Made by a program: the position numbers and the translations under genes. Shown one piece after another: positions 1,646 to 10,860 of a stretch of 10,860 bases of DNA. Numbering within the stretch: the first letter of the stretch is position 1; every line of letters starts with the position of its first letter. Under the pieces are notes generated by a model. That model worked only from the letters and a program-made list of their open reading frames with translations. It did not search any database and had not been told where the DNA came from. This DNA comes from Gemmatimonadota bacterium (GTDB taxonomy: Bacteria > GCA-2686955): positions 1-10,860 of the forward strand of contig NYZA01000131.1 in the NCBI GenBank assembly GCA_002686955.1, written 5' to 3'.

Positions 1646-1669
1646 TTAGGGTTCGCGCAAGAATAACTT
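1646..1669 (+). repeat. Dispersed repeat, copy 1
   Basis: 24-bp sequence starting TTAGGGTTCGCGCAAGAATA. It is identical to copy 3 (10763-10786) except for one T/C difference, and 19 of 21 core bases match copy 2 (4996-5016). It begins where the beta-helix stub stops and lies just upstream of lnt. It may be the end of a lost mobile element. Confidence 0.75.
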
Positions 1670-1729
1670 CAGACCTCCTGATCCAGCCCCTCCTTGCGCC
1701 TCGGGATCGCCCATGCCATAGTCCGATCG

Positions 1730-3355
1730 GTGAGGGACACGCCCGAGATCGACCGTCTGACGCGCGCCCGCTGGGCCGCCGGAGAGCAGGGGGGAAGCTC
1801 CTTGGCGCGCTCTCTCGTACTGGCGCTCGGGGCGGGGGGATTGCACGCGCTCTCGATGCCGCCGGGCGCTTTCGGCTGGGCGGTACCAGGGGTGGTCGGG
1901 CTCTCGTTCTGCTCGCTGCGGCGAGTCCGGAATGGGGGACATGCCTTCGGACTGGGGGTCATCTACGGGCTCTCGGTCCATCTCGGGGTGTTTCATTGGC
2001 TCTTCGAGATACCGGAAACGCCGGCCGCGATTCTGGCGGTGGGGTATCTGGCCCTGTCGGTGATGGGTGCGATATTCCCGGGGTTGCTTTTCTTCGTTTT
2101 CGCGCGGGTCGGGGGGCGGTTGCCGGTGGGATGGGGAGCGGCGCTTTTCGCGGTGCTCTGGGTGGGGATGGAGCAGTTGCGGGGTTTCGGTCTGCTCGGC
2201 TTTCCATGGCTCGATCTTTCTACCTCGCTCGCCGTCCATCCGCTGCTGATCCAGGTGGCGGCCTGGGGAGGGGCGGCGGCGGTCGATCTGATGGCGGCGG
2301 GAGTGGGTGTAGCGTTGGCGCTGGCGATCGATCCGAGGGGGTGTTCGGGCCGGCGGCTTCGCTTCGACGCGGCGGGAGTGGCGATGCTCATCCTGGGGGC
2401 GTGGGTGGCGGTGGGGTGGCTGCGTCTACCGTCGATCGGTGCGGAGCCGGAGACCGGTGGGAGCGACTCACTGCGGGTCGCCGTGGTGCAGGGAAATATC
2501 GATCCGACCGAGAAATGGCTCTCGGGGCATGCGCGCCTTTCGCTCGAGACCTTCGCGGAGGAGACGCGGACGGAGATGGAGGCGGCCGAAGGGGCGATCG
2601 ATCTCTTTGTCTGGCCCGAGACGAGTCTGCCCTGTTTGGTCGAGGGGGAGAGCGCCGTCTACTGCCGGTCGTGGGTGGAGGAGCTGGCGCGGGAGACCGG
2701 GGCGTGGCTGCTGGTCGGGGCGCTGGCGCCGGGGCCGCAGGTTGGCGGGCGGAAGTCGTACTACAACAGTGCCTATCTGGTCGATCCGGCAGGGGAGTGG
2801 CTGGACCGCTACGACAAGGTGCACCTCGTGCCTTTCGGTGAGATGATCCCGCTCGACGATCAGATCGAGGTGTTGCGCCGGGTCGATTTCGGCGAGGGGG
2901 ATTTCGTGGCGGGCGAGGCGGTGCGACCGATCGGCGATCCGCCGCGGAGGCTGGGCGTTCTGATCTGCTTCGAGTCGCTCTTCGGGGGGCAGGCTCGATC
3001 GCTGGCGAGGGCCGGCGCCCGGCTGCTCGTGGTGATGACGAACGATGCGTGGTTCGGGCGATCCGCCGCGCCCGAGCAGCACGCTGCGATCGCCGCCCTG
3101 CGAGCCGTGGAGACGGGGCTGCCGGTGGCCCGTTGCGCGAACACCGGCATTTCGGGCTTCGTGGACCCCTGGGGGCGGTATTCGGTGCGGATCGAGCTCG
3201 ATGAGCGCGGCACACGGGTCGCGACCCTGCCGGCGGTGGAGTCCGATACGCTATACAGTCGCTGGGGCGAGATCGTCGGATTCCCCAGTGGACTCTTGTT
3301 TGTCGCGCTGGCTCTGGGCGAGCTCCTGGGACGGCGCCGAAAGGGGTCGAATTGA
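1730..3355 (+). CDS. lnt: Apolipoprotein N-acyltransferase
   Basis: Inner-membrane enzyme that adds the third acyl chain to the N-terminal Cys of lipoproteins, the last step of lipoprotein maturation. The N-terminal half holds several hydrophobic segments, starting with SLARSLVLALGAGGLHALSM. The C-terminal half is a nitrilase-like domain with the complete catalytic triad. Counting from GTG 1730 these are E297 in VWPETSLP, K363 in YDKVHLVPFGE and C413 in LICFESLF. NDAWFG and the Arg/Asn-rich loop ARCANTGISG of the family follow. A last hydrophobic helix (SGLLFVALALGELLG) ends the 541-aa protein, a little longer than the usual 500 or so. The start is uncertain. TTG 1694 and GTG 1730 lack a ribosome site, while TTG 1802 follows AGGGGGGAA and sits just before the first membrane helix. 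The TGA overlaps the era start. Confidence 0.93.
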   Translation: MRDTPEIDRLTRARWAAGEQGGSSLARSLVLALGAGGLHALSMPPGAFGWAVPGVVGLSFCSLRRVRNGGHAFGLGVIYGLSVHLGVFHWLFEIPETPAAILAVGYLALSVMGAIFPGLLFFVFARVGGRLPVGWGAALFAVLWVGMEQLRGFGLLGFPWLDLSTSLAVHPLLIQVAAWGGAAAVDLMAAGVGVALALAIDPRGCSGRRLRFDAAGVAMLILGAWVAVGWLRLPSIGAEPETGGSDSLRVAVVQGNIDPTEKWLSGHARLSLETFAEETRTEMEAAEGAIDLFVWPETSLPCLVEGESAVYCRSWVEELARETGAWLLVGALAPGPQVGGRKSYYNSAYLVDPAGEWLDRYDKVHLVPFGEMIPLDDQIEVLRRVDFGEGDFVAGEAVRPIGDPPRRLGVLICFESLFGGQARSLARAGARLLVVMTNDAWFGRSAAPEQHAAIAALRAVETGLPVARCANTGISGFVDPWGRYSVRIELDERGTRVATLPAVESDTLYSRWGEIVGFPSGLLFVALALGELLGRRRKGSN

Positions 3356-4275
3356 CCGAATCGAAACCGGAATCGAAGCCCGAGCACCGCGCCGGCTATG
3401 TCGCTCTGGTCGGGCGCCCCAATGTGGGCAAATCGACCCTGATGAACGCGCTGCTCGACACCCGCCTCGCGATCACATCGAAGCGGCCGCAGACGACACG
3501 GACGCGGGTGACGGGGATCTTGAACGGCGAGGGCTATCAGGCGGTGCTCGTCGACACGCCGGGCGTCGTGCGTCCTTCCGATCCTCTGCGGAAAGAGATG
3601 ATGCGCACGGCGGAATCGGTTGTTCGAGACGCCGATGCGGTGGTCTATCTGGTCGAAGCGGTGGGGCGGGGAAGCGCTGTTTCTCCGATCGCGATCGGCT
3701 GGTTGCGGGAGAGCGCTCGGCCCGCTCTGCTCGTGCTGAACAAGATCGACCGCCTTCCCCGCCTCCAGCTCTTGCCGATGATCGACCGGCTGCGGGACGC
3801 AAACGACTGGACCGAAATCGTGCCGATCAGCGCGCTGAAAAGGGACGGAATCGACCGGGTGATCGGCGCGATCGAGCGGGTTCTGCCGGAAGGGCCGCCG
3901 CTCTTTCTCGAGGGGGAGCTGTCGGAGGAGCCGGAACGTTTCTTCGCCGCGGAGTTCGTTCGGGAGCAGCTCATGCGGCAGTTGGAGCAGGAGCTGCCGT
4001 ACGCTGTCGCAGTCGAAGTGGAGCGTTTCGAGAGGGCGGAGGAGGGGGGACGGCGTCTGATCTCGGCGTTGATCGTCGTCGAGCGGGAGAGTCAAAAGGG
4101 GATCGTCGTGGGGAAGGGGGGACAGATGATCAAGAAGATCGGGACGGCTGCGAGGCGCTCGATCGAGAGCTTCTTGGGGGAGCCGCTGACGCTCGACCTG
4201 CTGGTCAAGGTGGAGAAGAACTGGAGCACCGATCCGCGCCGCTTGGCCCGCTTCGGGTATCGAGGGCGGGGGTGA
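3352..4275 (+). CDS. era: GTPase Era (30S ribosome maturation)
   Basis: Ras-like GTPase with a C-terminal KH domain that binds the 3' end of 16S rRNA and assists 30S assembly. All G motifs are present: G1 GRPNVGKST (21-29), the switch I Thr in QTTRTR (47-52), G3 DTPG (68-71), G4 NKID (130-133) and G5 SAL (160-162). The Era-type ERFFAAEFVREQL helix (195-207) leads into the KH domain, whose GKGG loop is at 254-257. At 307 aa the length is normal. The start is TTG 3352, overlapping the lnt TGA by 4 bp, with AAGGGG at 3341-3346, so translation is likely coupled to lnt. An ATG start is not available nearby in frame. Pairing with lnt is a plausible core operon, and the gene is intact. Confidence 0.96.
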   Translation: MTESKPESKPEHRAGYVALVGRPNVGKSTLMNALLDTRLAITSKRPQTTRTRVTGILNGEGYQAVLVDTPGVVRPSDPLRKEMMRTAESVVRDADAVVYLVEAVGRGSAVSPIAIGWLRESARPALLVLNKIDRLPRLQLLPMIDRLRDANDWTEIVPISALKRDGIDRVIGAIERVLPEGPPLFLEGELSEEPERFFAAEFVREQLMRQLEQELPYAVAVEVERFERAEEGGRRLISALIVVERESQKGIVVGKGGQMIKKIGTAARRSIESFLGEPLTLDLLVKVEKNWSTDPRRLARFGYRGRG

Positions 4276-4391
4276 TTTGGAGCGGCGGTCGGATCGAGGG
4301 GTGGAATATCTATGTCGCTTCCCCAATACTCCCGACTTCTACGAGCGGAAGTCTACCGGGTGGATGGCCAAGCAACGACTGGAGGTGTGCG

Positions 4392-4800
4392 ATGGCCTTC
4401 CCTTCGATCTCGGCGCCCTTTCCGGCCGGCGTCTCCGGCCGCGTCCCGTCTCTGGGCGTTCTCGGCCACGCGATCATCTTTGCCGGCGTGATGAATGCCA
4501 CTGGAGCACACGCGGCGACGAACCGAGTGCCGGGGGACTATCCGCGGATCCAATATGCCATCGATGCCGCATCGTAGGGCGACACTGTGCTCGTGGCCTC
4601 CGGGACCTATACCGGAGGGGGCAACAAGGATCTCGACTTCGGAGGGGTCTATCTGGTGCCTCTTGCGGAGGCGGGCCCCGTGTTGGAGCGTCGCTCGGTT
4701 TCCGGCAATTCCACGACCGACTACTACTGGGTAGGCGCGGTCTACTGCGAATCCTCCAGCCCGACCTTGACCGACTGCATCATCACAGCGAACGACGCAG
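4392..4800 (+). pseudogene. Secreted beta-helix protein, broken by an amber codon and truncated
   Basis: ATG 4392 follows GGAGGT (4381-4386). It opens a signal peptide with hydrophobic core SLGVLGHAIIFAGVM and a likely AHA|AT cleavage site, then RVPGDYPRIQYAIDAAS. An in-frame TAG (4575-4577) interrupts the frame. Immediately beyond it the same frame reads GDTVLVASGTYTGGG, the expected continuation of a right-handed beta-helix domain. The paralogue at 6118-7463 has CAA (Gln) at the matching position, so CAG-to-TAG is the simplest explanation. After DFGGVYLVPLAEAGP the match jumps to a rung sequence, GAVYCESSSPTLTDCIITAN, suggesting an internal deletion. Homology ends near 4800 at a junction with a recombinase relic on the other strand. 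Proteins of this type are exported and usually sit on the cell surface. Confidence 0.75.
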
Positions 4801-4995
4801 AATCGACCTTCGATCCCTATTGGCGGTCATGTCCACGGCCCAGATCGCGTCGATATCGTGCGCCAACCGCCGGATGTTTTCACGGCCCTCGTCGTCAACA
4901 CGTGTTGCTCACACCGCGCATCCTGAGCTTGTCGCTGCACTTTCGATAGCTTTTCACGCTCTCGTTCCACTGCATTTCGAGAGTCCGGGCAACCA
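4795..4995 (-). pseudogene. Large serine recombinase C-terminal relic, frameshifted
   Basis: Read leftwards on the minus strand, three frames in succession give pieces of one protein. They are ARTLEMQWNESVKSY, then EREKLSKVQRQAQDARCEQH, then ENIRRLAHDIDAIWAVDM followed by TANRDRRSI. This order and wording match the C-terminal coiled-coil region of large serine (resolvase-type) recombinases, where '..LVAR.LE..WN', a charged helix and '..LG.DLPALW.APTTTNRDRK..LR' follow one another. At least two frameshifts and loss of both ends make it non-functional. The right edge coincides with repeat copy 2. The left edge abuts the beta-helix pseudogene. Family recognition is by eye. Confidence 0.55.
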
Positions 4996-5016
4996 AGGGT
5001 CCGCGCAGGAATGACT
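4996..5016 (+). repeat. Dispersed repeat, copy 2 (diverged)
   Basis: AGGGTCCGCGCAGGAATGAC plus T. 19 of 21 bases agree with copy 3, and the orientation is the same. The serine recombinase relic ends exactly at its left edge. Bases 5017-5082 to its right hold nothing I recognise before the MITE-like element begins. Confidence 0.6.
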
Positions 5017-5082
5017 GTAATTGTCGGTGGTTACCGGAGGATCGATCAGACCCCGCCCGCAAGTCACCTCTCGTGCGATCTA

Positions 5083-5261
5083 GCCCGGATATCTCACGAG
5101 ATTCCTGCTGCTACCGCACATCTCCCTGCCCTGCCGCCACTTCCCATCGTTTCGCCTTGTGCGACGTAGCACCAGTACGCCTCCGCGTTGAACCGGCACG
5201 AAGCACCGGCAGGACAAGAACCTGCACGGTCTCCCTATGGAATCTCGTGAGATATCCGGGC
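5083..5261. mobile_element. MITE-like element with perfect 23-bp terminal inverted repeats
   Basis: GCCCGGATATCTCACGAGAT (5083-5102, arm to 5105) is repeated as its exact reverse complement at 5239-5261. The arms are 23 bp without mismatch and are separated by 133 bp. No transposase is encoded in the interior. The size and architecture are those of a miniature non-autonomous transposable element. Its right end sits inside the ATPase reading frame and supplies foreign C-terminal codons and the stop TAG. No target-site duplication is evident at the outer edges, and the ATPase gene does not resume on the left, so sequence loss followed or accompanied insertion. Confidence 0.65.
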
Positions 5262-5939
5262 GCTCCTGGCCCGCACGGTCGGCTGAGAGACGTTCATCGC
5301 ATTGGCGATTCTCGCTCCGTTCCACACCTGGCCATGACAGTGGGCAATCATTGTCCAGAACCGACGCAGCGCGGTGGCGGAGAGGCGCGGACGAAGTTGT
5401 GCGAGATCGCGCTCCAGAAAGGTCCGGATGAAGTCCTGGCGCCAGTGATCGCTTTGTTGTTCCGTGTTGGCGAGGAATGAGCGCGGGAAACCCCCTCGAA
5501 TCCAGAGACGGTCCGCCTGGTCCGGCCCCACTTCCTTGAGATCGAACCCGCTCAGCTCCAGGAAGGTGATCCGGCCGGCGAGGGTCTCGGAACCTTGCCT
5601 CAAGAGCTCCGGCGAAGCGCTGCCGAGAATCAAGAACCGGGCCGGTCTCTCCGGGCGATCCACCAGGACACGGAGCAGCCCGAAGACATCTGGGAGACGC
5701 TGGATTTCATCGAGAACAACGAGACCGGTCAGGGGGCGCAACGCCATTGAGGGGTCGGCGAGGCGGGCGAGGTCGGCCGGATCTTCGAGGTCGAAGTGGG
5801 TGGTCCTCTCGCTCGATCGGTTGGCAATCTGCCGGGCGAGAGTGGTTTTTCCGACCTGACGGGCGCCCAGGATCGCCACGATGGGGGACCATCCCAGCCG
5901 CGCGAGAACGTCAACGATATGGTAGGATCGATCGATCAT
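5235..5939 (-). pseudogene. DUF4143-type AAA ATPase, 3'-truncated by the inverted-repeat element
   Basis: P-loop ATPase of the AAA/DUF4143 family, whose biological role is poorly defined. The 234-aa frame has Walker A GARQVGKTT (25-33), Walker B LVVLDEIQ (73-80, D77/E78), a sensor-like LILGSAS (103-109), WIRGGFPRSFL (146-156) and IRTFLERDLAQLRP (171-184). It then enters the helix-turn-helix region with NVSQPTVRA (216-224). Full-length members have roughly 380-400 residues, continuing with a DUF4143 C-terminal domain. Here the match stops at about 5268, and the last 11 or so codons come from the MITE-like element. The ATG at 5937-5939 is the natural start. The ATPase core could still be expressed, but the C-terminal domain is missing. 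A long inverted repeat lies just upstream. Confidence 0.8.
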
Positions 5940-5950
5940 GGGGCGACATC

Positions 5951-5989
5951 ACCATGAAAAACGGAGGGCTGGCCTTTGTTTTTCATGGT
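5951..5989. repeat. 12-bp inverted repeat upstream of the ATPase gene
   Basis: ACCATGAAAAAC (5951-5962) and GTTTTTCATGGT (5978-5989) are perfect reverse complements around a 15-bp centre. The left arm lies 11 bp upstream of the ATPase ATG. It could be an operator, an mRNA hairpin in the leader or the remnant of an element. There is no T-tract of a terminator on either side. The rest of 5990-6117 shows nothing recognisable. Confidence 0.5.
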
Positions 5990-6300
5990 TGTGCGCCCCC
6001 GGGCGGTCTTCTCACTCCCGCATCGTTGATCCTACCCGAGAGCTCATCGAGAGCGCTCAACCCGTCCTCCGTGAGCACAGGCCGATCCAACTCCCCAGGC
6101 CTCGATCGCCGAGTTGCCTACGGCAACCACCCCGCGTTGCCGGGTCCCCCCATCGCTCCCATGTCCGACCTCGCGCCATTGGGGTACCACGCCGGCCAGC
6201 GGGGATGCCAGTCGTAGATCGCATCCTCGACCGTCGGGTCGCCGGCGTCGACACAAGGTGAGATGGGTCTCAGCAGATAGTCGTATCCCCGATAGGAGAC

Positions 6301-6640
6301 GAAGCGCGGATCGGCGTTGATGTTGCCTTCGCCAAACCAGCCGCCATAGATGTTGGAGTAGGTGAGAACCAGCGTGCCCGCATAGTTGTAGATCTCCTGC
6401 GGGTAGTTAGCCCAGAGGATGCAGTTGGTGAGCGTCGGGGAGGAGACCGAGAGGTAGAGCCCGCCGCCATCCTCGCTGGTCGAGTTCCCGGCGATCGTGC
6501 AGTTGTTGAGCGTCGGGGCGGAGGACCTGCCGTAGAGCCCGCCGCCATCGTTGATGGCCGAGTTGCCGGTGATCGCGCAGCTCGTGAGCGTCGGGGAGGA
6601 GTTGTCGCAGTAGAGCCCACCGCCACTGTCGTCGGACGAG
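6301..6640 (-). repeat. Intragenic duplication, unit 1 of about 340 bp
   Basis: This stretch is closely similar to 7104-7446, offset by 803 bp. Both copies begin GAAGCGCGGATCGGCG on the plus strand, share GATGTTGGAGTAGGTGAGAA, and continue through several 78-bp rung repeats. Each encodes a last set of rungs plus the closing segment of a beta-helix domain, so the protein arose by domain duplication. Confidence 0.75.
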
Positions 6641-7103
6641 TTCCCGGCAATCGTGCAATGATCGACGAAGGGGGACGAGGAGCTGCAACGAATGCCCCTT
6701 CCCCCCCCGTGAGTGTGACACCCGCCAGAGTGCTCGGCAGGAATGGAAACGCCGCCTCGAACACCACGACGTCCTCCCCATTGCCGTTGATGATCGTGGA
6801 GGCAACAACACCCGGGTCTTCGGGATCCCAGCTCCGCACCACCACACCACGTTCTGGGATCCGCAGACCAGACTCCAGGTAGGTGCCTGGAGCGATCAAG
6901 ATCGTGTCGCCTTGACACGCGGCCGAGAGCGCCTCGGCGATCGTTCCGTAGTCACTCGGCACGTCGAGGATGCTGGGAGACGGCTCGACGGGCTCCTCGC
7001 AGCCCAGTCCCCATGCGCCCATATCGGCCCCCTCGAAGCCTGTTCCGAGGCAGGGTGAGTCCGCCGCCAGCTGAAGATCCAATACTCCGCAGGTCACATC
7101 GCA

Positions 7104-7446
7104 GAAGCGCGGATCGGCGTCGATGTTGCCTTCGCCCTCCCAGCCGCCTTCGATGTTGGAGTAGGTGAGAACCGGGGTGCCCGAAGCGACGTAGATCTCC
7201 CGCGGTTGGTCAGCCCAGAGGATGCAGTTGCTGAGCGTCGTGGAGGAGGAACCCGACGAGAGGTGGAGCCCGCCGCCATCGCGGGCGGCGAAGTTCCCGG
7301 TGATCGTGCAGCTCGTGAGCGTCGGGGTGGAGTACTTGGAGTAGAGCCCTCCGCCATCGTTGCTGGCCGAGTTCCCGGTGATCGGGCAGTTGGTGAGCGT
7401 CGGGGAGGACGAAGCGTCGCAGCAGAGCCCGCCGCCATCCTCGCCG
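7104..7446 (-). repeat. Intragenic duplication, unit 2
   Basis: This is the second copy of the rung-plus-closing unit described at 6301-6640. It forms the truncated N-terminal domain of the beta-helix pseudogene. Its right edge is the breakpoint with the PIN-domain fragment. Confidence 0.75.
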
Positions 7447-7540
7447 GGCCGGATCCCGCCTCGCTACGCTTCGTCTGCCTCGATCGACGGCTGGCCTCCG
7501 CGGCGGAACGGGAGCGGTTCGTTGTGTTGAGCTGGTCCGA
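7443..7540 (+). pseudogene. PIN-domain (VapC-like) toxin C-terminal fragment
   Basis: The plus-strand frame reads PDPASLRFVCLDRRLASAAE, then RERFVVLS. This resembles the last strand-helix-strand of PIN-domain ribonuclease toxins, in which '..FVS.D.RL..AA...G..VL' carries the final conserved Asp and ends the protein. No upstream part exists: the same frame to the left is only the antisense of the beta-helix gene. The fragment lies exactly at the junction where the beta-helix pseudogene loses its 5' end. It is probably debris of a lost toxin-antitoxin locus. The match is short, so this is tentative. Confidence 0.45.
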
Positions 7541-7557
7541 TGAGGACCGACCGACTT

Positions 7558-8517
7558 CTATGACTGGAAGTAGTCGATCACCTGCCGGATCGTGGTGTCC
7601 AGGTCGATGGTGGGCTCGTAGCCGATGAATTCACGGGCCTTTGCGAGATTGGGGACGCGGCGGCGCATATCCTCGAACCCTTTTTCGTAGGCGACTTCGT
7701 AGGGGATGTACTGGATCTCCGATGTCGAGCCGGTGAGCTTCTTGACCCGCTCGGCGAGCTCGAGAATGGTCACTTCGGCGTCGTTGCCCAGGTTGAAGAC
7801 CTGGCCGTGGGCCTTCTCGCAGTCCATGAGCTTCATGAGGCCATCGACGACGTCGCTCACGTTGGCGAAGCAGCGGGATTGCTTGCCGTCGTCGTAGACG
7901 GGGAGGGGATGCTCGAGGAGGGCCGATTTGACGAATCGGGGGAGGACCATGCCGTACTCGCCGGTCTGGCGCGGGCCGACGGTGTTGAAGAGGCGGGCGA
8001 TGACGACCGGGAGATGCTTCTCGCGGTAGTAGGCGAGGGCGAGGTATTCGTCGACCGCCTTGGCGTCGGCGTAGCTCCAGCGGCTCAGGTGGGTCGAGCC
8101 CATCGTGCGGTCATGATCCTCGGAGAAGGGGATCTCGTTCGACTTGCCGTAGACCTCCGAGGTCGAGGCGATCAGGACGCTCTTCTTCTTCTTGTTCGCC
8201 TCTTCGAGGACGATCTCGGTGCCACGGATGTTCACGGTGAGGGAGCGAAGGGGCTCGTCGACGATCATGCGGACGCCGACGGCGGCGGCGAGGTGGTAGA
8301 CCTGATCGGCCTGGTCGATCAGCTTGGCCATTGTCTGCTCGTTGAGCACCGAATCGATGACCCAGGAGAAGCGCTCGTTCTCTTCGAGATGCTTGATGTT
8401 GTCGAAGCGGCCGGTGGAGAGGTCGTCGATGATCGTGACGCGGTCGCCTCGGTCGAGGAGGCGCTCGCAGAGATGGGAGCCGATGAAACCGGCGCCGCCG
8501 GTGATCAGGATGTGCAT
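7558..8517 (-). CDS. Extended SDR NDP-sugar epimerase/decarboxylase (UDP-glucuronate decarboxylase-like)
   Basis: NAD-dependent extended short-chain dehydrogenase acting on a nucleotide sugar, supplying precursors for surface polysaccharide or other glycans. The 319-aa protein has the Rossmann motif GGAGFIG (7-13), acidic DD (31-32) ending strand 2 (NAD preference), YHLAAAVGV (74-82), STSEVYG (118-124) and the catalytic Y149xxxK153 in SYADAKAVDEY. It also has ARLFNTVGPRQ (174-184) and a C-terminal sugar-binding domain with QVFNLGND. Length is normal. The STSEVYG/RLFNTVGPR wording resembles UDP-glucuronate decarboxylases and UDP-glucose 4-epimerases, and which reaction it performs cannot be decided here. 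The ATG at 8515-8517 begins directly at MHILITGG. It lies 55 bp downstream of plsC on the same strand, suggesting one transcript. It ends at TAG 7558. Confidence 0.9.
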   Translation of the reverse strand: MHILITGGAGFIGSHLCERLLDRGDRVTIIDDLSTGRFDNIKHLEENERFSWVIDSVLNEQTMAKLIDQADQVYHLAAAVGVRMIVDEPLRSLTVNIRGTEIVLEEANKKKKSVLIASTSEVYGKSNEIPFSEDHDRTMGSTHLSRWSYADAKAVDEYLALAYYREKHLPVVIARLFNTVGPRQTGEYGMVLPRFVKSALLEHPLPVYDDGKQSRCFANVSDVVDGLMKLMDCEKAHGQVFNLGNDAEVTILELAERVKKLTGSTSEIQYIPYEVAYEKGFEDMRRRVPNLAKAREFIGYEPTIDLDTTIRQVIDYFQS

Positions 8518-8572
8518 CTGAGGTCCCGTGGGGTCCGTCGCGGTGAAGGGGAGGACGTTGGAAACGCGGAAG

Positions 8573-9271
8573 TTAGCATATCTGCTCGTAGAGGGCGCGA
8601 ACCGCCGTCTCTGCGCGGGCCAGCAGCTCGTTTCGTCCGCTGGGGCCGAGGGGCGGAATCGGGGCGCCGATCGCGAGGCGGACCTCGCCGGGCACAACTT
8701 CGCGGCCCCCCTTCGGCAGGCGTTCGGCGGTGCCACGGATCGCCAGGGGCACGACCGGGACGTCGGCTTTCGAGGCGAGCACGAAGGCGCCCTTCTTGAA
8801 GGGCTGGATGCGGGTGTCTCGCGATCGTGTGCCCTCGGCGTAGACCAGGATCGTGGTGCCTTGGCGCACGCGCTTCGCCGCTTCGTCGATCGTTCGGAAG
8901 GCGCGGTTGCGATCGCCCCGGTCGATCTCGAGAATGCCGGCGCGGCGCATGGCGCGGCCGAAGAGGGGGATCCGGAAGAGCTCGGTCTTCGCGATGATCT
9001 TGACGTGGGGGAAGATGCTGAGCGTGGAGGGGATGTCGAGCAGGGATTGATGGTTCGATATGAATACGACCGGTGCGATATCGGGGGGACGACCGACGAC
9101 ACGGACGCGAACGCCGAGGACTCGGAGCATCCGATCGGCCCATCGCTTGACGATTCGCTCGAAGCTGCGCTGGAAGCGATCGGGGCGCATCAGGTGCGAG
9201 AGGAGGATCGTATTGATGCATGCCCATCCGGTCACGAGGATCGCCGCGAAGAATCTGAGCTTTGCCGACAT
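8573..9271 (-). CDS. plsC: 1-acyl-sn-glycerol-3-phosphate acyltransferase
   Basis: Membrane-associated PlsC-family acyltransferase that converts lysophosphatidic acid to phosphatidic acid in phospholipid synthesis. The protein has 232 aa counted from ATG 9269-9271. An N-terminal hydrophobic helix (FFAAILVTGWACINTILL, 7-24) is followed by motif I NHQSLLD (73-79, H74 and D79 catalytic), motif II GILEIDR (112-118), motif III EGTRS (146-150, phosphate binding) and motif IV VPVVPLAIRG (171-180). The frame is open further upstream, but the upstream part is Pro/Arg-rich with no family match, so the ATG before SAKLRFF is preferred. No good ribosome site precedes it; the leader is C-rich. The stop TAA is at 8573. 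The epimerase gene follows on the same strand. Intact. Confidence 0.93.
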   Translation of the reverse strand: MSAKLRFFAAILVTGWACINTILLSHLMRPDRFQRSFERIVKRWADRMLRVLGVRVRVVGRPPDIAPVVFISNHQSLLDIPSTLSIFPHVKIIAKTELFRIPLFGRAMRRAGILEIDRGDRNRAFRTIDEAAKRVRQGTTILVYAEGTRSRDTRIQPFKKGAFVLASKADVPVVPLAIRGTAERLPKGGREVVPGEVRLAIGAPIPPLGPSGRNELLARAETAVRALYEQIC

Positions 9272-9404
9272 GGGCGGGATGTTGGGGGCTTTTGGGGGCG
9301 GGATGCAAGGGGGGAGTGGGTTGACTGACGTTTCGACAAGAGCGTGAGATCCTCGGGAGGACCGCGCACTGGCGGGCGGAGAGCCGTCGTTCCTGGCCAG
9401 GCAA

Positions 9405-9426
9405 GCCCAGCGGCTCCGCTCAGGGC
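9405..9426. repeat. Palindromic repeat-like hairpin
   Basis: GCCCAGCGG and CCGCT(CA)GGGC pair into a GC-rich hairpin with a 2-base bulge and a 2-base loop. It resembles the short 'GCCC-TGAGCGGAGCCG-GGGC' palindromes scattered in intergenic DNA of many environmental bacteria. Only one copy is present in this window, and there is no T-tract to make it a terminator. Confidence 0.35.
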
Positions 9427-9485
9427 GAACTTCCCGCCCTGCGTGCCGGCGAGGCGACACCGGCCAGCGCGCCCCTCTCCGCGAC

Positions 9486-9610
9486 GGGGCCCTTCGTTGT
9501 AGGACTCCCCGTAGCGATTGGCCCAGAGCAGCTCGCCCGCGTCGTCCAGCTTGGCCACCGCCTCTGGCGGTGTGACTCGAGAAGGCTCCGCCGTTCCGTC
9601 GTTGGGCACG
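9486..9610 (-). pseudogene. Beta-propeller (SBBP-like) protein remnant
   Basis: The minus-strand frame reads EAVAKLDDAGELLWANRYGE then SYNEGP. This is the repeating blade motif '..F.AKLD..GNLLWA..YGGS..DE' of secreted SBBP-type beta-propellers. After NEGP the expected next blade ('..V..T.DGG..V.G') is not found in any frame, and no full gene surrounds the piece. I read it as a relic of one blade. It is a single short match, so confidence is modest. Confidence 0.4.
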
Positions 9611-9950
9611 ATGAGAAGTGGTCCATGCACCGGTCCCCGTTGTGACTGATCAGGCGGTCTCGATCGGCCGGGACCGCGCCGAAGATCATGGCGACAAACA
9701 CCCCATCCAAGACGGCCAACGCCGCGTTTCTAGCACGCCAGGACAGCGTTCAGGCACGCACCGAGCTCTGGGAGATCCCTTTGCGCAACGTACACTTCCA
9801 TTCACCGACATCGGTCCGGCCCGCTTCGTCGGTGAGGGGCGGATTACAGGACGGTCGCGATAGGTGGGAACCGATTCGCCCCGAGGATCGATCACACGTC
9901 ACGATCTGGAGCCGGATTACCGTGTCCGGACGAGAATCCGCGTCGCTCCG
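9611..9950. other. No gene recognised
   Basis: Both strands have open frames here, but none shows a family motif, a convincing ribosome site or a clean start. The only structure seen is a 7-bp inverted repeat, CGGTCCC (9631-9637) with GGGACCG (9670-9676). It is probably degenerate accessory DNA. Confidence 0.4.
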
Positions 9951-10442
9951 TCAGTGCTCCTCTCTGGGGCGCGTCGCCTTTAGGAGGCGAGTCCAGACCC
10001 TCACACTCGCGGCACCAATGAAGGGCGAGCTCACCAGCCCTGGGAAGTACCCGCCAGAAGTGATTGCCAGTAGCGGATGGGCGATGCCGTTGATCATCCC
10101 GGCGATCGCGAGGAACCAGGCGGCGAAATATGCGGCTGGCCGTGCGGAACGAAGGCCCGGAATCGAGGCAATCCAGATCCCGAGCCAGATCAGATTGAGT
10201 ATGACGAAGAGGGAAAGCGGCATCCCCGGCAGGCCGAAGAGGGCCGGCAAGCGCTCGTGGAGGCCGGTCGCCGTCTCTTCGCCGAAGTGGACGCCCTGAA
10301 TCCCGACTGCAAGAGCGAGCGCACGGGCGGCCGCGACTCGTTCCGCCACATTTTCGGCAGGCGATCGGCGGGTCAGGACGAGAAGCTGGGCGGCCAGCGC
10401 GGTCGGAGCCAGCACGAATAGGCTGGGGAGCAGGCTCAGCAC
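9951..10442 (-). CDS. HXXEE domain membrane protein
   Basis: Small integral membrane protein of 163 aa. It carries the family-naming motif H52-F-G-E55-E56 in VHFGEETATGLHERLP. Hydrophobic segments are LLPSLFVLAPTALAAQLLVL (4-23), MPLSLFVILNLIWLGIW (74-90), AAYFAAWFLAIAGM (103-116) and GLVSSPFIGAASVRV (135-149). Conserved-looking INGIAHPLLAI (118-127) and GGYFPGL (130-136) agree with the family. The function of HXXEE proteins is unknown to me; the His/Glu cluster suggests a metal or catalytic site. The start is taken as GTG 10440-10442, with GGAG about 11 bases upstream. An integrase relic lies immediately upstream on the same strand, so the original promoter, and perhaps a few N-terminal residues, may have been replaced. 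It ends at TGA 9951. Confidence 0.7.
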   Translation of the reverse strand: MLSLLPSLFVLAPTALAAQLLVLTRRSPAENVAERVAAARALALAVGIQGVHFGEETATGLHERLPALFGLPGMPLSLFVILNLIWLGIWIASIPGLRSARPAAYFAAWFLAIAGMINGIAHPLLAITSGGYFPGLVSSPFIGAASVRVWTRLLKATRPREEH

Positions 10443-10464
10443 GGTTCGAGAGTCTCCGGAGAAC

Positions 10465-10650
10465 TTGCCGACAATCGGGTGTTAGAGAGATGACCATCAC
10501 TGCGCCGGTTGTGAGCCACGACCACGAGGACGAAGAGCGAGCGGAACGGGATCGTTGGAATCGTGAAGAAGGCGATTGCCACCAAGTCGCCGGCGTGGTT
10601 GTCGAGGAAAGTCTGTCTCCCCGACCATGATCCGCGACGAACGGCACGGT
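10465..10650 (-). pseudogene. DDE integrase (rve-type transposase) fragment
   Basis: The minus-strand frame contains GRQTFLDNHAGDLVAIAF then FTIPTIPFRSLFVLVVVAHN. This is the start of the integrase catalytic core known from IS481/IS3-like and related transposases ('..W.TFL.NHA..IVA.DFFTVPT..FR.LYVFVVL.H.RR'). At the first catalytic Asp (V-A-x-D-F-F) this copy has Ala (GCC). The upstream helix-turn-helix part is scrambled over several frames, and the core beyond NRR is lost, so the second Asp and Glu are missing. It is a dead fragment lying between repeat copy 3 and the HXXEE gene. Confidence 0.65.
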
Positions 10651-10751
10651 CGTATCCGTCTCTGAGATTCGACGTCCAGGGGGTCTCCGGGCAGCATCGC
10701 GAGCGCACAACAGCTCGGCGCGCCGACCGCCAGGAGGAAGTAGCGGTTCTT

Positions 10752-10778
10752 TGCGCGGACCCTTAGGGTCCGCGCAAG
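10752..10778. repeat. Perfect 12-bp-arm palindrome containing the repeat core
   Basis: TTGCGCGGACCC (10752-10763, overlapping the repeat by one base) and GGGTCCGCGCAA (10767-10778) are exact reverse complements with only 3 bases between. Allowing one inserted T, similarity continues outward for several bases, as if two copies of the repeat met head to head. It could fold into a strong hairpin, but no T-run follows on either strand. Confidence 0.7.
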
Positions 10779-10786
10779 AATAACTT
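10763..10786 (+). repeat. Dispersed repeat, copy 3
   Basis: 24 bp beginning TTAGGGTCCGCGCAAGAATA, in the same orientation as copies 1 and 2. It forms the right half of the palindrome at 10752-10778. The integrase relic lies to its left, reading away from it. Bases 10787-10860 show nothing recognisable. Confidence 0.75.
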
Positions 10787-10860
10787 GTCATTTGGCATCC
10801 CATCTGCACCACATCTCCGGCCGATCGGCAAGTCCCGAAATCCCTGAAATAGCCCGACTA

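Follow-up and report, generated by a model that had tools for sequence, protein, structure and literature searches.

The dispersed repeat of a Gemmatimonadota contig is the TIR of a new MITE family, probably mobilised by an ISAzo13-type transposase

We analysed a 10,860-nucleotide stretch of DNA from a Gemmatimonadota bacterium (contig NYZA01000131.1 of GenBank assembly GCA_002686955.1; hereafter, the window), in which a short repeat occurs three times. The repeat is the TIR of a new MITE family, and the ends, sizes, target and copy number of this family are well supported. We are confident in the wider reading that an ISAzo13-type transposase acts on the MITE in trans, and that the three copies of the window are, respectively, a MITE end interrupted by an insertion sequence, a lone eroded end and a MITE of which the contig contains only the first half.

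Results

The repeat marks both ends of a high-copy element

The 20-base core of the repeat, AGGGTCCGCGCAAGAATAAC, lies on the + strand of the window at positions 1648-1667 (one mismatch), 4996-5015 (two mismatches) and 10765-10784 (no mismatch), which bears out the three copies in a single orientation described in a sequence-only reading of this DNA. No occurrence was found in 200 dinucleotide shuffles of the window. In the draft genome to which the window belongs (4.28 Mb in 270 contigs, 84.5% complete), we counted 117 copies with at most two mismatches, 68 forward and 49 reverse, while the reversed pattern, used as a control, gave no match. Pairing the ends within about 300 kb fetched around these copies revealed 53 facing pairs that delimit elements of 40-180 bp, most of them falling into a few fixed lengths: 179/180 bp (33 complete elements), 87/88 bp and 98/99 bp (the shorter classes spanning 87-99 bp), with two elements of 40 bp. 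One of the latter, at C176:6984-7023, is a minimal MITE in which the two end repeats nearly abut, with TAA on both sides. The sequence-only reading had proposed the terminus of a transposable element, and had set as its test a genomic copy number above about 20, fixed boundaries and a second end at a fixed distance; the 117 ends, the facing pairs and the 3-bp duplications described below support that proposal. The repeat is neither confined to its three window copies, lacking a consistent partner end, nor part of an ordinary coding domain.

The consensus bodies are 179 and 87 bp long, and individual copies are about 90% identical to their consensus (median). The two arms differ, one beginning TTGTCATTTGGCATCCCATCTG and the other TTGTCATCTTGGCGCCCAGATG. 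Bodies of 87-179 bp are non-coding and too short for a transposase; among ten odd solitary ends, whose interiors were screened by eye for reading frames, no transposase was recognised. With the start of the element set at GGG, an exact 3-bp target duplication flanks 25 of 52 pairs (26 of 53 in a recount; 5,000 shuffles averaged 10.2 and never exceeded 20) and is missing in about half of the pairs. The flanks have the consensus C (63%), T (83%), W (91%) and A (82%), so that the target reads C-T-W-A-G, with duplications centred on TWA. TIRs at fixed spacing, a target duplication, a high copy number and the lack of a transposase of its own identify the element as a MITE.

The MITEs are mostly intergenic. 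When the surrounding genes were called with a simple codon model that we built ourselves, the stop codon of a predicted gene fell at the end of the duplication or one base beyond it in 12 flanks, and within the end repeat in 4 more; insertions at such stops leave the reading frame closed. Contigs of the draft often stop inside a MITE, near the centre of the hairpin (for example C18, C156, C195, C251 and C131), and the true copy number is therefore probably higher than the number counted.

Among 386 genomes searched, three others contained the repeat: G149 (14 copies), G148 (6) and G058 (1). The one other genome of the same phylum had no copy and, since the search of the phylum returned only that genome and our own, the three carriers lie outside the phylum. 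G149 and G148 contain elements of about 180 bp with the same two arms, often flanked by TNA, and these are 70-73% identical to our consensus. No similar MITE was found in plasmids, and the exact 21-mer was absent from viral contigs.

The body of the MITE folds more stably on one strand

RNA folding of the 179-nt consensus produced a hairpin that runs from end to end, at -142.6 kcal/mol for the strand on which the GGCGCCCAG arm comes first and -105.4 kcal/mol for the opposite strand. In a symmetric comparison of the consensus arms, 10 differences are G-U and 1 is A-C on the GGCGCCCAG-arm-first strand. This strand is the more stable in all 33 full copies of our genome and in 10 of 10 elements from G149 and G148, in every one of which G-U exceeds A-C, although at the level of the consensus the ratio is weaker in these two genomes (7:5 and 7:3). 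Covariation between the arms was also detected: 32 pairs had changed on both sides, against 14.6, a count above that of 500/500 shuffles, and comparison of elements from unrelated genomes showed double compensation at 9-12 of 78 pairs.

These observations would suit a MITE that is primarily a conserved structured RNA, or a single-strand hairpin, serving some function in its own right and mobile only secondarily. We regard this as improbable. Firstly, the direction of neighbouring genes shows no bias relative to the hairpin strand (17 to 22), and transcription from these genes would favour neither strand. Secondly, among substitutions found in at least two copies G-U outnumbers A-C by 25 to 11 (p 0.029), whereas substitutions found in a single copy are unbiased (19 to 14, p 0.49), indicating that individual copies decay freely; the copies share ancestry, which makes these p-values lenient. 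Thirdly, arm covariation alone can stem from recognition of inverted repeats or from arm-templated repair. Fourthly, no Rfam family passed its gathering score in the window, and matches at four element loci were all sub-threshold. What speaks for a folded strand is the strand asymmetry, which is suggestive rather than proof. We therefore advance only tentatively, and with more doubt than belief, the idea that a hairpin specific to one strand has been maintained along the whole 180-nt body in unrelated bacteria, which would imply that the element needs a folded strand, and not the duplex ends alone, in order to spread.

An ISAzo13-type transposase gene of G149 shares an end with the MITE

We return to the mobile MITE and its partner. 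Sharing of ends with an autonomous element was found in G149. A gene on its contig C130 matches DDE_Tnp_ISAZ013 (PF07592, E 9.6e-114) and is bounded on its C-terminal side by the end repeat, the coding end ...CAAGCAAGAATGTGA passing into AGTTATTTCTGCGCGGACCC-TAA; the left end of this copy is decayed yet alignable. The same junction of C-terminal coding end and TIR is present at a second locus of G149, on contig C77. The terminal 32 bases of the MITE are also those that close the transposase gene of G149. In addition, three ISAzo13-type elements from plasmid records (L206, L207 and L208), two of them annotated as ISAzo13 family, have TIRs beginning with GGG and the duplications CTA, TAA and TTA. 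The junctions between TIR and transposase in G149, together with the ends and duplications of the plasmid elements, are the grounds on which we call the MITE ISAzo13-type. Like the insertion sequences of that family (PF07592), it has GGG...CCC inverted ends and 3-bp duplications of the TWA/CTA type; unlike them, it is non-coding and its body is a conserved hairpin. In our own genome, no PF07592 match was found in the roughly 300 kb fetched around the copies. An ISAzo13-type transposase is likely to mobilise the MITE, with a partner seen in the relative genome and presumed by extension in ours. The ISAzo13-type DDE transposase would act in trans on the non-autonomous MITE, binding and cutting its GGGTYCGCGCAAGAATAACTT ends, and the element would be inserted at C-TWA-G with duplication of the central 3 bp.

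TNA target duplications and GG ends also suit the IS5/PIF-Harbinger group, and the TWA duplications and GGG ends of the MITE could be read as those of an IS5-family MITE. This origin is very unlikely: DDE_Tnp_1 (PF01609) occurs at only two loci of our genome, neither of them bounded by the repeat, DDE_Tnp_4 (PF13359) does not occur in it, and the ISAzo13 partner of G149 fits better. An IS5-type partner was rejected, as the genome contains no IS5-type transposase bounded by these ends.

A PF21804 insertion sequence recurs at one site of the MITE

Fragments of a further element were found on contigs C99, C108, C102 and C22. It has an HTH gene as well as a gene for a 572-aa transposase (PF21804, Transposase_29), the ORF of which is intact in one copy. 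Residues D148, D239 and E343 are invariant in an alignment of six relatives and, judging by this conservation, look like the DDE triad of the transposase. We found eight ends of this insertion sequence, seven that match an 18-base end exactly and that of the window with three mismatches. The junction is with the outer MITE repeat, at AACTT, in five cases and with the inner MITE arm, at AAGTT/AACTT, in three, so that all eight correspond to one site of the MITE, in both orientations. Both sides are visible on C108, which reads AGGGTCCACGCAAGAAT-AACTT-[IS]-AACTT-GTCATTTGGCATCCC. Relative to the outer repeat, the insertion sequence lies one way on C99 and C102 and the opposite way on C108 and C22; therefore, at least two insertions occurred into the same five bases, in a genome with an estimated 3,700 or so AANTT sites. 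Repeated targeting of the MITE site by the insertion sequence is possible, as is the spread of a MITE that already bore it. A variant, GCACTACAT, adjoins the insertion sequence on both C108 and C62 and is absent from the complete MITEs compared; this shared variant gives a slight hint in favour of spread.

Every copy of the insertion sequence with a visible outer-side end is preceded by the 21-bp repeat, and one copy has its transposase ORF intact, as might be expected if the repeat belonged to the PF21804 insertion sequence as its own terminus and the MITEs had arisen from it by deletion. We consider this highly improbable. On C3, C62 and C108, the inner MITE arm directly adjoins the other side of the insertion sequence, with a repeat of AACTT/AAGTT, and it is on this account that PF21804 was rejected as the autonomous partner of the MITE. 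Relatives in other genomes belong to the same transposase family and have the same TTCAGNNNTCCTGA ends, without the GGGTCCGCGC part, and the same 5-bp AANTT duplications (AAGTT, AAGTT and AATTT), but lie in other DNA, whereas the ends found in our genome are all inside the MITE. The MITE, with its 3-bp rather than 5-bp duplication, centred on TWA, and its GGG ends, does not have the features of a PF21804 insertion sequence; the nested element does. No PF21804 relative was found in plasmids and phages by tblastn. In an Acidobacteria MAG (L100:5107-6559), a PF21804 element has itself been invaded, close to its right end, by a different element with perfect 18-bp ends, GAGCCACTTGCAAAATTC.

The three copies in the window are remnants

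With the repeat taken as the TIR of an ISAzo13-type MITE, each copy of the window can be placed. Copy 1 is the MITE TIR GGGTTCGCGCAAGAATAACTT at 1649-1669 (+ strand), identified by the core match and the pairing of ends, and preceded at 1646-1648 (+) by TTA, the left target trinucleotide, in the position of the TWA duplication of complete copies. AACTT, at the close of this TIR (1665-1669), is the 5-bp target that the nested insertion sequence duplicated; the end of that insertion sequence, CAGACCTCCTGATC, follows at 1670-1683 (+). Over its first 35 bases, this stretch of TIR and insertion-sequence end is 97% identical to the MITE/insertion sequence junction of contig C99. After the first 14 bp of the insertion sequence, the remainder of both elements is missing, and unrelated DNA leads from beyond 1683 to a gene of lnt type (Pfam). 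Copy 1 is clearly a MITE end cut at AACTT by a PF21804-type insertion sequence. As the sequence-only reading had claimed, it starts where a beta-helix gene breaks off, in that a short beta-helix-like frame reads ...ATC GAT TAG and stops there. Just upstream, at 932-1535, lie adjacent genes for a BrnT-type ribonuclease toxin (PF04365) and a CopG-type antitoxin (PF12441).

Copy 2 (4997-5015, +) is an eroded solitary MITE end with two mismatches and no arm after it. Copy 3 (10766-10860, +) matches positions 1-95 of the 179-bp MITE consensus at 94.7% identity; the contig stops close to the hairpin loop, so that only about half of the MITE is present. Direct reading showed that another eroded MITE end, of which twelve bases are left (10751-10762, -), stands head to head with copy 3, with TTA between the two. 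Head-to-head ends were also found on C17 and C244, and would be expected if CCC-TWA-GGG itself matched the C-TWA-G target. A serine-recombinase relic beside copy 2 and a dead integrase beside copy 3, which had also been proposed, found no support: a scan of the open frames near these copies gave no significant Pfam match.

A second MITE-like family is present at 5083-5261, where 133 bp separate perfect inverted repeats of 23 bp (GCCCGGATATCTCACGAGATTCC). Its 17-mer CCCGGATATCTCACGAG has 33 copies in the genome with at most two mismatches, several of them in facing pairs 159-160 bp apart. On the minus strand of 6300-7460 lies a beta-helix repeat region made of 78-bp periodic units, in which a 145-bp block is duplicated, the copies being 803 bp apart.

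Discussion

The MITE family described here is new and belongs to a known kind of element. ERIC and Correia are short, non-coding, palindromic bacterial MITEs, mostly intergenic and with a short target duplication. Our element resembles them in all of these respects; it differs in its ends, in its target (TWA rather than TA), in its likely transposase family and in a body that is conserved across unrelated genomes through compensated pairs. REP/REPIN elements moved by RAYT, an HUH tyrosine transposase, are likewise palindromic, of high copy number and mostly intergenic, yet true 3-bp target duplications, long TIRs and a DDE (ISAzo13) partner leave such an origin with next to no likelihood. The ISAzo13 family is named in PMC9208149; in the open-access literature searched, we found no ISAzo13-associated MITE.

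Insertion sequences that target REP palindromes are known, among them ISPpu9 (PMC8450116), ISPsy8 and ISRm22 (PMC1525189, PMC8450116). Like the nested insertion sequence, they are found repeatedly at a single fixed position within a palindromic repeat of high copy number; unlike them, the nested element has a PF21804 transposase, and its target is a MITE end, not a REP. It is thus another insertion sequence that recurs at one site of a palindromic repeat.

A high-copy repeat that was unannotated in a sparsely sampled phylum is now tied to the ISAzo13 transposase family. Hairpin repeats of this kind end contigs in practice, NYZA01000131.1 included. Being common to unrelated genomes, the MITE family offers a test case for selection on a folded single strand: if such selection is real, G-U pairs on one strand would spare the fold of an RNA or single strand while breaking the perfect DNA palindrome.
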